Below are positions 33,410 to 40,116 of a stretch of 64,000 nt of DNA, piece by piece; within the stretch, counting starts at the first letter, position 1; the number at the start of each line of letters is the position of its first letter. A program made the translations under genes and the position numbers. Source of the DNA: Mycoplasmopsis pulmonis (GTDB lineage Bacteria > Bacillota_I > Bacilli_A > Mycoplasmatales > Metamycoplasmataceae); contig NZ_LR215008.1 in assembly GCF_900660575.1 (NCBI RefSeq), positions 248,001 to 312,000 on the forward strand, in the 5' to 3' direction. The notes beneath the pieces were generated by a model. It was not told the origin of the DNA. It saw only the letters and a list, made by a program, of their open reading frames with translations, and ran no database searches.

Positions 33410-34384
33410 ATGCTGAACTACAAATTAAGATTAAGAAAACCATTAGTTGTTTTTAAGAAGTATTGAACTATTAAAAAAATTACTTTTGTATCAATTTTAA
33501 TTGCTATTTCAGTAGTTTTTGCTATTTTAGGAGCTACAATAATTCCTATCACTAGCTTGCCTACATACAAAATTTCTTTTACAGGACTTCCTGTTAAGAT
33601 TTCGGGTTATATTTTTGGTCCAATAATTGGTCTTTTTGTAGGTCTTTTAACAGATCTTATTTCAATTTTGTTTTTACCTTCATATTACCACCCTTATTAC
33701 ACATTAGCCTCAGGTATTAATGGATTTATTCCAGGAATTGTTGGTGTAATGTTTTTTAAATTTTTTAAAGTTTTTTTCAACCCAAGAAGAAAAGAATTTT
33801 CTTTAGATTCAAAAATTGAAAAAGAAAAAAAACTTTATGAAAAGTCTAATTTTACAAATCAAAAACTTGCTAAAAAAATTGAACTTTTAACCCAAAGAAA
33901 AGAAAAACTAACTAAAGCAAACACGGATAAAAGAGTTGATTCATTTTTAACTTTTGTTTTTATGATTGCTGGAGCATTTTTTATTGTTATTACCATCCTT
34001 TTTAATTACGTTTTAATTTTCAATATCTTAAGTAAAAAACAAATAGCTGATTCTTTTTTACGTAAACCTGAATATTTAATGCTTTTAGCCTCTTCTGGTT
34101 TTATCCTAATGTTTTTTTATGTGATAATAAGTAAATTCTTTTTAAAAAGTGAGAAGTACTACACTATTATTCCTATTGTTGTTTTTTCAGCACTTTTAGA
34201 ATTTGCAAATGTTAATGTTATTTCTTTAGCTGATGAGGCATCTTTAAATATAAGTTATGTCACTGCTATGTTTAACCATATAATAACTGCTCCTATTAAA
34301 ATTTGAGTTAACTTAGTTGTTGTCTATTATTCATATAAAATAATAATTTTCCTAATAAATAAAAATTCAAAAAATAGTTGATAA
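33410..34384 (+). CDS. ECF transporter S component (substrate-binding membrane protein)
   Basis: 324 residues, TGA-Trp codons. Motif-like stretch TGLPVKISGYIFGPIIGLFVG followed by LTDLIS is typical of vitamin-type ECF S components. Six or so hydrophobic helices, but helices 3 and 4 are separated by an inserted charged coiled-coil loop (about residues 122-180), so it is longer than the usual ~190 residues. Substrate unknown (folate or riboflavin families are similar). It follows rlmH and precedes a dead ABC-like gene on the same strand. Weak RBS. Confidence 0.8.
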
Positions 34385-34406: not shown

Positions 34407-36770
34407 ATGGAAGAAAAAAAATATATTAATATTGAAGATATTTATATTTTCAATAAAAATAAAAATAAAATTGATTCCAATTTTCAATCAAAAATTAGAT
34501 TAAAAATTTTTGAAGGAGAAATTGGAGCTTTTTTTCTTAGAGAAGATAGTAATTTTTTATATACTAAAATCTGAAAAATTATAGAAAATCAAAAACTAGA
34601 TGACTGAGTTTTAATTTCAAATTCATTTTTTTTTGATGGGCATGAATTTGAAAATATTTCTAACAAAAAATTAATAACCTCTGATTTAATTGACATACTT
34701 TACAAAGAGGATTCTTTTGCTACAAAAAACTCTGAAATTTCAAGTGTTCACGAAAATATTTACAAGCACATTAAATGAATTTTAGAAAAAAATAAAGCCT
34801 CTTTTAAATCAAAAAATGATCAAAAATATAGTGCTAATAACATCCAATATTTGATGGATAATTTAAAGCTAAAATATTTAAATTTAATTAATAAAACTTA
34901 TGAAAAAAACTTAAGCTTTTTAGAAAATTGAGAAGAAAAAATAAGTAAATATAGAGATCTCTATGAAAACAATGGCGAAAAAGCAATTACAACAATTCTT
35001 TCATTTTTTAAAAGTGTAAATTCATTACTTGTTTATCATCAAAAAAAATATAGTATTGTTTTTCATGATTCTTATAAAGAATTTTTAACTTTAAATAAAA
35101 ACTTAAAAAACACTTTTTTCTTAGATACAACTAATTTAGATAAATTAAAAAAAGAGATAAATCACACAAGAACTATATCTTTTTTTAATTTCAATAGCTT
35201 ATCTCAAAGAGAAGATTTTTTTGTTTTAAAAAAAGAAATTGATAACATACTTTTAAACCAAAATAATAGAATCAGAAACATCAAAAAAATGATTGATTCA
35301 TTCATTTTTTCTTATGAAAATCTTTATAAAATCGAAAATTCACCATACAACAAAACTCACACAAACAATAAGCCTCTTTTTTATTTAAAAAGAAAATTAG
35401 TTTTTCAAAAAGCAGCTAGGGTTTTAAGGAAAAACAAGAAATTTTTAGTTTATCTAGACAAAGATCATTTAAATAGTTTTATTGAAAATTTTAAAAAATA
35501 CTCGCTTGATTTTATCCATAATAACTTGTTTTATATCAATGACAAATACTCTCATGTAAAACAAATTAGAAATATTATTTTTTTTGAATTCAACTTTGAT
35601 TTTAAGCCATATTTATTACTTTCTTCTTCAAATAAAAAGAGATATAAAAATGAAATTAAGGCTGTGCAAAATCAACTGATTTCATATCAAAATCAAATCA
35701 ACATTTTTTTATTTAAAAACTTTAAAAAAGATCTTCAAAAAGACTATGAAGCTGATAATTTAGAATATCTTTATAAAGAAGAATATGCTGATATTCATTG
35801 AAAACAAAAAAAGATTTCCGAAAATCATACTAAAATAATTTCTAATTTAGATTCTAAAATTTATAACTTACTAGAAAGAAACAATCAAGTTATTTTAAAC
35901 ATTAAAAAATTAATTAATGAAGCTAGCAATATTAATGAGGCAATTGAGAAAAAAGATAATAAATCTTCATATATTTCATACAATAAAAAATGAGCAAAAA
36001 TTATCTTAAAAAATATTGATAATTTAAAACTTTTAACCCAATCAATTACTTACTTAAATTTATATTTTAAAAACTTAAATTCTAAGAAAAATCACTATGA
36101 AATTTTTGTCAAAATGTACTATGAATATTTATTGATGATTGACAAAATTAAAATAAATGGCGATTATCTTTTGACAATTCATAACGACCTTGATGATTTT
36201 GAAAAAATCAAGATTTCATTTTTAATTTCACAACTTAAAAATCCATTTTTAATTTTTATTAACCTTTTAGATAAAAGTTTTTCAAAAAATGAGTTAACTA
36301 AAATAATTGGACTTTTTGGCTCAATTACAAGACAAAAAAAACAAGCCATTATTTTCTTTTTAAATGACAAGCATTTAGTATTTAATTTAACAAATAGAGT
36401 CTGAATTTTTGCAAAAAACTCACTAGTAGAATTTGGTAAAACTCATAAAGTATTTTTAAATCCAATTAATATTTTTTCTAAAAAGATGATCTATCATGAC
36501 AAAGATAAGTATCTAAGAGATATAGTTGACTATGATATTGACAAAGAGGAAAAAACCTTCAATAAATATACAGATGATCATTTTGTTTTTTCAACTCAAA
36601 ATGAGTTTTTACTTTGAAGTAAAACTTTAAAAGGTGATATGGATGCTTATATAACTGATAAAAAAATTTCAAATTTTTATACAGATAAAAGCCCAACAAC
36701 ACTACTTGATTTAGAAAGTGTTGTTTCTTATCCTAAAGAATTTATGTTAATTGACATTTCAAAAAAATAA
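34407..36770 (+). CDS. Degenerate ABC-transporter ATPase-like protein (OppD/OppF-like, catalytic motifs lost)
   Basis: 787 residues, several TGA-Trp codons. The first ~120 and the last ~190 residues follow the order of an Opp-type ABC ATPase, but split by a ~450-residue Lys/Asn-rich helical insert. FEGEIGAFFLREDSNFLYTK aligns with the GE..G..G.SGSGKS start, yet no P-loop remains (residues 42-54). FLIFINLLDKSFS (about 613-625) takes the Walker B place with Asp and Glu replaced by Asn and Leu; FFLNDKH (about 651) the H-switch place; and SLVEFGKTHKVFLNP the ..VE.G....lf..P end of OppD/F. No LSGGQ seen. It therefore cannot hydrolyse ATP in the usual way but the frame is intact, so a structural or binding role is likely. 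Confidence 0.7.
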
Positions 36771-36836: not shown

Positions 36837-39320
36837 ATGGATTCAAAGTATAATCACTATGAAATAGAAAAAGATAAAAATCAAAAATGGATTGACAAAA
36901 AGTATTTTATCAATCATGATTTAGATAAAAAACCTTTTTCAATAATATTGCCCCCGCCAAATGTAACTGGACAGCTGCACCTTGGTCATGCTTTAAATGG
37001 ATATTTACAAGATAGTGTTATTAGATATAAAAAACTTGAAGGATATGATGTTTTATTTTTACCTGCAATGGACCATGCAGGAATAGCCACTCAAATTAAA
37101 GTTGAAGAGTCTCTTGCAAAAGAAAATCTTTTAAAGCAAGATATTGGAAGAGAAAAGTTTTTAAAATTTAGTTATCAATGAAAAGATAAATATGCCAACA
37201 TCATTAAATCTCAGTGAAACAAACTTGGCTTAGCCCTTGATTATTCAAGTGAGAGATTTACCCTTGATCAAGATTCTAAAGATGCTGTTAATAAAGTTTT
37301 TATTGATTTATATAATGCTGGCATTATTTATCAAGGAGTTAAAGGAATTAATTGAGACCCTCTTCAAAAAACAGCTCTATCAAATGTTGAGGTAATTAAC
37401 AAAGAAACTCCTCAAAAAATGTATTACATAAAATACTTTTTAGAAAACTCAGATGAATTTGTTGAAATAGCCACTGTTAGAACAGAAACACTTTATAGTG
37501 ATAGAGCCATAGGAATAAATCCAAATGATCCTAGAGCTAAAAATTATGTAAATAAATTTGTAATTCATCCTTTAACAAAAAAAAGATTGCCAATTATTAC
37601 AGATGACTACATTGATCAATCTTTTGCTTCAGGTTTTATGAAAATATCAGCTCATTCATTAGCTGATATTGACATTTTAAATAAAAACAACCTAGAAATA
37701 GTTGAGTCAATTGATGAAAGCGGATTTTTAACAAATATTTGTGATGAATTTGAAGGAATGGAGCGTTTTGAAGCTCGTGAAAAAATTGCTCAAAAATTAC
37801 AAAAAGAAAACTTAATTTCAAGAGTAGAAAACTACTCTTCAAATATTGGTTATTCAGATAGAACCAAAGTGCCAATTGAAATTTTAGTTAAAAAACAGTG
37901 ATTTGTTAAAATGGATCTTTTTTCTAAGATGGTTTTAGATTCTTTAGAATCAAAAAACAAAGTAAATTTTTACCCTTCTAGATTTAAAAAAAATCTTGAA
38001 GGTTGAATGAATAAAACTTATGATTGAACAATTTCTCGTCAGCTTTGATGAGGTCATCAAATACCAGCTTGATACAAAGATGAACAAACTAAAGTTCAAC
38101 TTAATAGCCCCGGGCCTGATTGAACTCAAGATCCAGATGTTTTGGATACATGATTTTCTTCTGCTATAGCTCCTTTTTCATTTTTTGGTTGACCAAATAC
38201 TTACAAAAAGCTAAAAAGATACTATCCAACTTCACTTTTAGTTACAGGTCATGACATCATATTTTTTTGAGTTTCAAGGATGTATTTTTCAGGGCTTTAT
38301 TTTATGAAAGACAAGCCTTTCAATGATGTTTTACTTCATGGTTTAATTAGAGATGAACAACGTAGAAAAATGACAAAATCTCTTGGTAATGGAATTGATC
38401 CAATGGTGCTAATTGATCAATATGGTTCAGATTCGCTAAGATGGTTTTTAATTACAAATACAACTCCTGGTTTGGATATAACCTACAATGAAGAAAAGAT
38501 TAAATCTTCATGAAATTTTATGAACAAACTTTGAAACATTGCTCGTTTTATTAACTTGCAAGAAAACACTAAAAAAGTTTCAATGTCAAAATATGACTAT
38601 TGAATTAGTGATAAGTTCAATAAAGTTGAATCATATGTTAAAAAGTTCATGAAAAAATATGAATTTACTTTAATTGGAAAAGAAATTTATAAATTCATCA
38701 TCAATGATTTTTCATCGTGATATTTAGAATTTTCTAAAATCACAAAAAACATAGATTTTCAAAAAGTAATTTTCAAAAGACTTTTACTTCTTTTACATCC
38801 TTTTATTCCATTTTTAACAGATCATTTATTCAAGATAATTTATGATCAAGAACTTCTTGAACACACCTTTGAAAACAAAAAATTAAAAACTCAAAAAAAT
38901 AATGTAGATCAACTTATTTTAGTTATAAGAGCTATTAGAGAATTTAGAGAAAAGTACCAAATTTCTAAAAAAGAAAAAATTAAATATTGAATTCAAGATT
39001 GCCAATTTTTACAAGAAGATATTGATGCTATTAACTTTTTAACTTTTTCAGAGTTAAGTCAAAACTCTGAAAATATGACAATAGTTGAAAATATTAAAAT
39101 ATTTATGATTTTGCCAAAAAATATTGAAGAAAATCTTTCTAAAGAAAAGGCACAAAAAATTGAATTTTTAAAATTTGAAATAAAAAGAGCTCAGTCACTT
39201 TTACTAAATGAAAAATTCATCTCTAAAGCTCCTACTTTAAAAGTAGAAGAGGAAAAAGCAAAACTTGAAAAATATCAATTACAACTAAAGGAATTACTTG
39301 ATGAAAAAATTATTGAGTAA
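36837..39320 (+). CDS. valS: Valyl-tRNA synthetase
   Basis: 827 residues with many TGA-Trp codons. Class I enzyme: [13 protein letters not shown] (HIGH, about 47), the WWGHQIPAWY block, LDTWFSSA, and KMTKSLGN (KMSKS equivalent, about 511), ending in a coiled-coil arm. The CP1 editing domain is present but altered: TVRTET replaces TTRPET (about 213) and SAHSLAD replaces the PAHDPxD block (about 272-277). RBS GTGAGG before the ATG. The 3' end overlaps folD by 20 bases. Confidence 0.96.
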
Positions 39321-40116
39321 TGAATTAGTTCAAATAAAAAGAGCTGAACTAAAAGAAAAATTCTCTAAGTTAGACCAAAAAGTTAAGTTTGCCATTGTTT
39401 TAATTGGTGATAATGCCTCATCTAAAATTTATGTTAAAAAGAAAATAGAGTTTGCCCAAGATATAGGTGTCGAGGCAAAACTTTTTCATTTTGAAGAAAA
39501 TGTTGATTTTAATTTATTAAAAGATGCTTTTAAAAAAATAGATAAAGAATATGATGGAATAATTTTACAACTTCCAGTTTTACACTTTGATGTAAATGAA
39601 CTTCTTTTAATGATTGATAAAAATAAAGATCTCGATGGACTTAACCCTGAAAATGAAAAAGCTTTTTATGAAAATAGAGAATGTATTATTCCGGCTACTG
39701 CAAGGGCTATTTGAACTTTTTTAAAATTTCATAAAATAAGTGTTGAAAATAAAAAAGTTTTTGTAGTAGGCCAGTCACGTTTGGTTGGAAAGCCCATTAG
39801 TCAATTTTTAAAAAATAACAATGCCATAGTTAGAGTTTTTGATAAATCCACAGGTTCAAAAGGCACTGAAGAAGCTGATATTTTAATTGTTGCTACGGGA
39901 GTTGCTCAATTGATAAAAGCTGAAAACATCAAAGAAAATTCAATTTTAATTGATGTTGGCTTTAGTAAAATAAACAATAAAATTTATGGAGATCTTGATA
40001 TTGAATCAATAAAAGAAAAAGCTCTAAAATATACCCCTCCAATTGGGGCAATAGGACCAGTTACTGTCCTAAGTTTATTTGAAAATCTTTATGAAATAAT
40101 TTTGAAGAAAAAATAA
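39301..40116 (+). CDS. folD: Methylenetetrahydrofolate dehydrogenase / methenyl cyclohydrolase FolD
   Basis: 271 residues, one TGA-Trp codon. Interconverts methylene- and formyl-THF. ASKIYVKKK carries the catalytic Lys, LQLPVL the QLPLP motif, DGLNPEN the DG motif, [11 protein letters not shown] the NADP site and [11 protein letters not shown] the PGGVGPMT end. The ATG at 39301 lies inside the end of valS; a TTG just before it is less likely. The PGGVGP motif reads PIGAIGP here. Confidence 0.95.

Follow-up and report, generated by a model that had tools for sequence, protein, structure and literature searches.

The protein described here (X), encoded in the 963-kb genome of Mycoplasmopsis pulmonis, is very probably a non-catalytic pseudo-ATPase that derives from the peptide-transporter ATPase OppF and has been maintained by selection. 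Its gene lies in a stretch of 64,000 nucleotides (hereafter the window) and runs from an ATG at position 34407 to a TAA ending at position 36770 when translated with NCBI genetic code 4, which reads eight in-frame TGA codons as Trp and yields a product of 787 amino acids without any transmembrane stretch (Table 1). The choice of genetic code matters, because a table 11 translation of the window breaks up the frame of X. Many other table 11 frames of the window are cut by TGA and rejoined under table 4, and the window is therefore mycoplasma DNA. At the local base composition of about 20% GC, a TAA or TAG is expected about once every 12 codons, so that 787 open codons do not constitute a chance frame.

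Table 1. Features of the gene for X and of its neighbours (positions in the window)
Feature	Position	Strand	Details
Dead OppF-like protein (MAG1360 family, NF045976)	34407..36770	+	787 aa, genetic code 4, NCBIfam match
N-terminal ABC half remnant, residues 1-90	34407..34676	+	Alignment to own OppF
Degenerate P-loop REDSNFLYT (45-53), GESGSGKT in OppF	34539..34565	+	Alignment to own OppF
Large insert (about residues 91-590), helical and rich in Lys	34677..36176	+	Homologous to active mycoplasma OppF insert
C-terminal ABC half remnant, about residues 591-696	36177..36494	+	Profile search, predicted models
Lost LSGGQ signature site, LDDFE (595-599)	36189..36203	+	Alignment to own OppF
Degenerate Walker B LIFINL (615-620)	36249..36266	+	Alignment to own OppF
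H-switch His to Asn653	36363..36365	+	Alignment to own OppF
Acidic-hydrophobic C-terminal tail EFMLIDI (778-784), weak EE(T/S)TIID(L/I/V) form	36738..36758	+	Tail pattern comparison
ECF-type S-component, folate-like family, 324 aa	33410..34384	+	Pfam/NCBIfam searches; 22 nt upstream of X
S-component extra charged loop, about residues 121-178	33770..33943	+	Missing in S-components of genera without slot OppF
valS, third gene of conserved slot	36837..39320	+	Gene named from translation

The family to which X belongs is already catalogued, in an NCBIfam entry without a recorded function (NF045976, "MAG1360 family OppF-related protein"), which X matches over its full length (residues 1-787 to positions 2-776 of a 777-position model) with 366 bits and an E-value of 3.3e-109, the cut-off being 200. 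The name MAG1360 was not found in the literature searched, and the main text of transposon studies on M. bovis and M. agalactiae gives no result for the MAG1360 gene. Among 320 genomes of the order, 62 contain a match above the cut-off, all of them in g1 or g2 (g1 is the genus of the window, and g2 to g14 designate the further genera compared). X matches no Pfam family at E <= 10, and hence not ABC_tran (PF00005). When X alone was used as query against the genome contigs no match was found, and a contig search with an alignment of a closer sub-clade returned four usable relatives; no phage relatives were found. A profile built from 24 members of the family matches E. coli OppF (8z21_D) with an E-value of 4.5e-9, as well as many OppF, DppF and DppD chains, always over the half that holds the signature, Walker B and H-switch. 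On this sequence evidence the C-terminal half of X belongs to the OppF/DppF family of ABC ATPases; its predicted secondary structure is helix-strand-helix-strand-helix-strand-strand. Alignment of dead and active long OppF profiles with HHalign reaches 99.9% over 597 columns, the insert included. AlphaFold2 models, used as consistency checks only, had low confidence for the whole protein (pLDDT 39, five-row alignment) and for the C-terminal part alone (pLDDT 51). Their top Foldseek matches were OppD/OppF, OppBCDF and other ABC ATPases, none at E <= 0.001, and the unrelated fold that would have spoken against ABC descent was not seen.

The loss of catalytic motifs can be read off a joint alignment of X with the intact OppF of its own genome, a protein of 781 amino acids encoded at C1:317401-319743 within an oppABCDF run. 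The P-loop GESGSGKT of this OppF (45-52) is replaced in X by REDSNFLYT, the Q-loop Q98 by K100, the signature FSGGQ (624-628) by LDDFE, the Walker B residues D648/E649 by N619/L620, in a register uncertain by about one residue, and the H-switch H682 by N653. The initial annotation had reported the lost P-loop and the substituted Walker B and H-switch residues, and the alignment agrees with it on each. The landmark (V/I)E.G..nP, which it had also pointed out, is real as well: its residues E675, G677 and P686 fall on positions that are invariant in active OppF. The loss of the catalytic motifs extends to the 57 distinct relatives read in g1 and g2, all of them open over the full length of the frame. 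None of the 57 shows P-loop, SGGQ or Walker B DE patterns, all three of which are present in long active OppFs. Catalytic motifs were also absent, where checked, from the relatives in g3, g4, g5, g11 and g13, with the proviso that at about 20% identity single-residue alignments are approximate.

A large insert does separate the two ABC halves, as initially annotated, but it is nearer 450-500 residues than 450 and is not peculiar to X, since the intact OppF of the same genome carries the same insert and long active mycoplasma OppFs in general carry a homologous one. The long mycoplasma OppF thus shares with X the two ABC halves, the insert, the E.G..(n)P landmark and a C-terminal H...W, and differs from it in having kept GESGSGKT, FSGGQ, ADEP and AHD and in possessing a core with a much lower rate of change than the insert. 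One residue of the insert, W465 (35799-35801), is conserved in 96-100% of the dead proteins of g1, g2 and g13 and is not so in active OppFs. Nucleotide-binding domains (NBDs) without catalysis that are nonetheless retained have been described in heterodimeric ABC exporters with degenerate nucleotide-binding sites (PMC7756269). X resembles these exporters in keeping ABC NBDs after the loss of catalysis and differs from them in lacking the P-loop and all other motifs and in having no known pairing. In such exporters the degenerate-site NBD retains its P-loop fold and forms a pair with an active NBD of the same transporter.

Selection for a non-catalytic role had initially been proposed from the open frame only, and comparison of related species now supports it. 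Whole-protein omega values of dead OppF, obtained from Nei-Gojobori counts in which synonymous sites approach saturation for the more distant pairs, range from 0.03 to 0.07 in seven close g1/g2 species pairs and reach 0.093 in one g13 pair. The active OppF of the same species pairs served as an internal control. In active OppF the ABC core has omega values of 0-0.03 and the insert of 0.05-0.21, the insert being the looser part in all eight pairs, whereas in dead OppF the core has values of 0.05-0.11 and the insert of 0.02-0.07, so that in seven of eight pairs it is the insert that changes more slowly. Pooled nonsynonymous changes in insert and core number 432:219 for the dead proteins against 460:33 for the active ones (Fisher P about 1e-30), and for synonymous changes the two ratios are alike (P = 0.45). 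This pattern indicates that the core of dead OppF has lost its special constraint and that the protein as a whole is still under purifying selection. Plain decay is excluded by these data. A reading in which the insert alone is under selection goes too far, because the dead core is still constrained, only not above the insert. We also observed an apparently broken MAG1360 gene in genome G166 (C1:637097-639333), where it is the sole family-level match, and extra, apparently broken copies in genome G139 (C5:541-4367), which has an intact gene too. These broken copies suggest that the MAG1360 gene is dispensable in some lineages.

The genomic context of X is conserved well beyond its genus. The window contains, all on the forward strand, recA, mnmG, rlmH, the ECF S-component gene, X, valS, folD and infC, in that order; neighbours were named from their translations, and family-library searches covered the S-component and X only. 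The gene for X lies 66 nt upstream of valS, and the stretch from the S-component gene to valS is free of terminator-like sites, which first appear after position 40,030. A slot composed of S-component, dead OppF and valS genes is found in seven genera (g1, g2, g3, g4, g5, g11 and g13). The S-component gene lies directly upstream of X on the same strand, mostly at 0-25 nt, in 30 of the 57 g1/g2 loci, and valS directly downstream in 17; both neighbours are present at one locus only, that of the window, while 16 loci have valS without an adjacent S-component gene and 11 have neither. Counted manually by genome, the two genes are neighbours in 34 of 65 g1/g2 genomes, with S-component and X apart in 31. 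The S-component neighbour pointed out initially is thus part of a pairing conserved across genera and no chance neighbour, but adjacency is not obligatory, since about half of the Mycoplasmopsis species have the S-component gene elsewhere.

In the other genera the slot protein varies in length and in its connection to valS. Relatives have 745-751 amino acids in g11 and 700-705 in g3, and are split in g4 (437 + 266), with HHalign values of 93.8-98.6%; the slot proteins of g5, mostly of 632-640 amino acids with two of about 730, are linked to the family via g11 (98.9%). In g13 the dead OppF starts 0-4 nt after the S-component gene, and in 20 of the 22 genomes listed (L134-L155, e.g. L110:1822-6001) its frame runs into valS without a stop, giving products of 1605-1634 amino acids. 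Most of these fused genes keep a sequence resembling a Shine-Dalgarno site ahead of the internal valS start, and both a fused dead OppF-ValRS and a plain ValRS may be made. In g6-g10 and g14 the S-component gene is followed by valS, by cysS or by a frame continuing into cysS, and no slot OppF was seen. For these genera and for g12, the absence of dead OppF rests on the slot and on NF045976, a model that misses g5 too. The S-component frame itself continues into cysS in g10 and g14, with products of 668-689 amino acids (L126:2233-4302, L132:8373-10379, L133:2177-4204). Proteins of about 400 amino acids that follow the S-component in g7-g9 were considered as shrunken dead OppFs; they show no homology and were read as cysteinyl-tRNA synthetases.

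The slot of g12 bears on the origin of this arrangement. It reads S-component, oppA, oppB, oppC, oppD, an intact OppF, a protein of 153 amino acids and valS (L129:1-16001, L130, L131). The 153-residue protein has hydrophobic, apparently membrane-spanning stretches and was rejected as a shrunken OppF relic for want of homology. A tree of 51 sequences separates active OppFs from all dead or slot proteins with 100/100 support, so that the dead lineage may have arisen only once. The slot OppF of g12 is, in the best tree, the active sequence nearest to the dead side, with a support (73/75) that is not firm. A tail of the form EE(S/T)TIIDV ends three of the five g12 OppFs and none of the 23 active OppFs from elsewhere, and recurs in dead proteins of g5 (12 of 14), g11 (4 of 5), g13 (11 of 21), g1 (4 of 4, in a weaker form) and g2 (13 of 53). 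This tail is supporting evidence only, for the pattern was fixed after the tails had been inspected and has a chance of about 4% per 70 residues. All 28 genomes checked, both those that have a dead OppF and those that lack one, contain an active OppF, and in genera with dead OppF, the genome of X included, the opp operon lies elsewhere. Taken together, the g12 slot operon, the tree placement and the shared tail suggest that dead OppF descends from the OppF of an opp operon located between the S-component gene and valS, a descent that is supported, if not firmly.

The S-component encoded just upstream of X (P0002) passes the PF12822 model with 38.4 bits, against a cut-off of 30.7, and stays below that of the folate family TIGR04518 (55.4 against 60 bits), and its substrate is therefore left unnamed. 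Wherever a genus has a slot OppF, be it dead or active, its S-components are longer by about 50-60 residues, a charged addition that follows the third membrane stretch and is missing from S-components of genera without a slot OppF. This difference in the loop is a single event on the S-component tree, coinciding with the slot OppF, and for this reason the co-occurrence fits a link between the two proteins and provides no independent replication of it. The host genome contains one CbiQ/EcfT match and a neighbouring pair of ABC (NBD) genes; hence, it is these genes, and not X, that would provide the S-component with ATP.

We propose that X goes back to an opp operon with the ECF S-component gene on one side and valS on the other, an arrangement that g12 still has, with an active OppF. 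In the other genera oppABCD would have been lost from the slot, with an active opp operon residing elsewhere, and the slot OppF would have lost its ATP site. The resulting protein would work as a soluble scaffold, its degenerate ABC halves kept as fold or frame and its insert forming a long helical arm that makes the functional contacts. The likeliest partner would be the S-component translated just before X, perhaps through its extra charged cytosolic loop, and X would assemble, hold or gate this S-component for a single shared EcfA/EcfA'/EcfT module that would supply ATP hydrolysis. As a full mechanism, a non-catalytic scaffold derived from the slot OppF with the S-component as its partner deserves somewhat less than even credence, the partnership being suggested by operon structure and loop co-occurrence. 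Against it, S-component and X lie apart in the 31 genomes mentioned above, X has stayed with valS and not with the S-component at 16 loci, and the apparently broken gene in at least one species (G166) means that X is not always needed; furthermore, the insert arm and the S-component loop both look positively charged, with no simple charge complementarity. In its widest form, namely that a peptide-transporter ATPase stranded in a vitamin-transporter operon lost its ATP site and came to serve an ECF transporter as a dedicated accessory subunit without catalysis, next to an S-component with a matching cytosolic loop, in seven genera of genome-reduced mycoplasmas and with an active counterpart in the slot of an eighth, the proposal is possible but somewhat unlikely.

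The persistence of X in genomes with a distant S-component gene, and at the 11 loci lacking both neighbours, would be expected if the insert had a function independent of the S-component, as a structural arm or in binding nucleic acids or membrane surfaces, with the ABC halves as a frame and the S-component operon as an opp relic. An insert whose constraint equals or exceeds that of the core in seven of eight pairs, with a net charge of +29 and a W465 that is nearly invariant in dead proteins only, points in the same direction; on the other hand, the tight spacing of S-component and X, the 0-nt gap that couples their translation in most of g13 and the matching loop suggest a continued link, and we consider an independent function rather unlikely. 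Its descent from OppF, and the active OppF found in all genomes checked, could also mean that X serves the Opp peptide transporter as a subunit, regulatory or dominant, that pairs with OppD, OppF or OppB/C. However, the core surfaces required for pairing with OppD or OppB/C belong to the part without extra constraint, and the opp operon is located elsewhere in genera with dead OppF, which makes such a subunit improbable.

The succession of X and valS in several genera, together with the in-frame fusions of g13, might point to an action of X with valyl-tRNA synthetase or translation. We find this quite improbable, given that the site ahead of the internal valS start allows ValRS to be made alone in most fusions and that many Mycoplasmopsis species show no link between X and valS. 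The two remaining readings are barely credible. A decaying pseudogene with a frame still unbroken would account for the lost motifs and for the broken copies in G166 and G139, but not for the omega values of 0.03-0.09 in eight species pairs or for a frame open in seven genera at about 20% identity. A nucleotide-binding protein that is still active through unrecognised motifs draws on the one or two Asp residues kept at Walker B by most Mycoplasmopsis relatives, yet no member has a P-loop-like sequence and X lacks even that Asp.

The analysis conducted here extends the family beyond the g1 and g2 members covered by NF045976 to relatives in g3, g4, g5, g11 and g13. It also brings to light the conservation of the slot, the active OppF that occupies it in g12 and the altered pattern of selection. 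Although mycoplasmas have lost the greater part of their genes, many species still devote about 2 kb to an ATPase incapable of using ATP, and this retention points to an unrecognised, non-catalytic role of an ABC fold. With an active protein in g12 and dead ones elsewhere in the same slot, the family provides a natural series for the conversion of a motor subunit into a scaffold. Catalogue names like "OppF-related" and "ABC transporter ATP-binding protein" would introduce errors into metabolic models and into minimal-genome counts.
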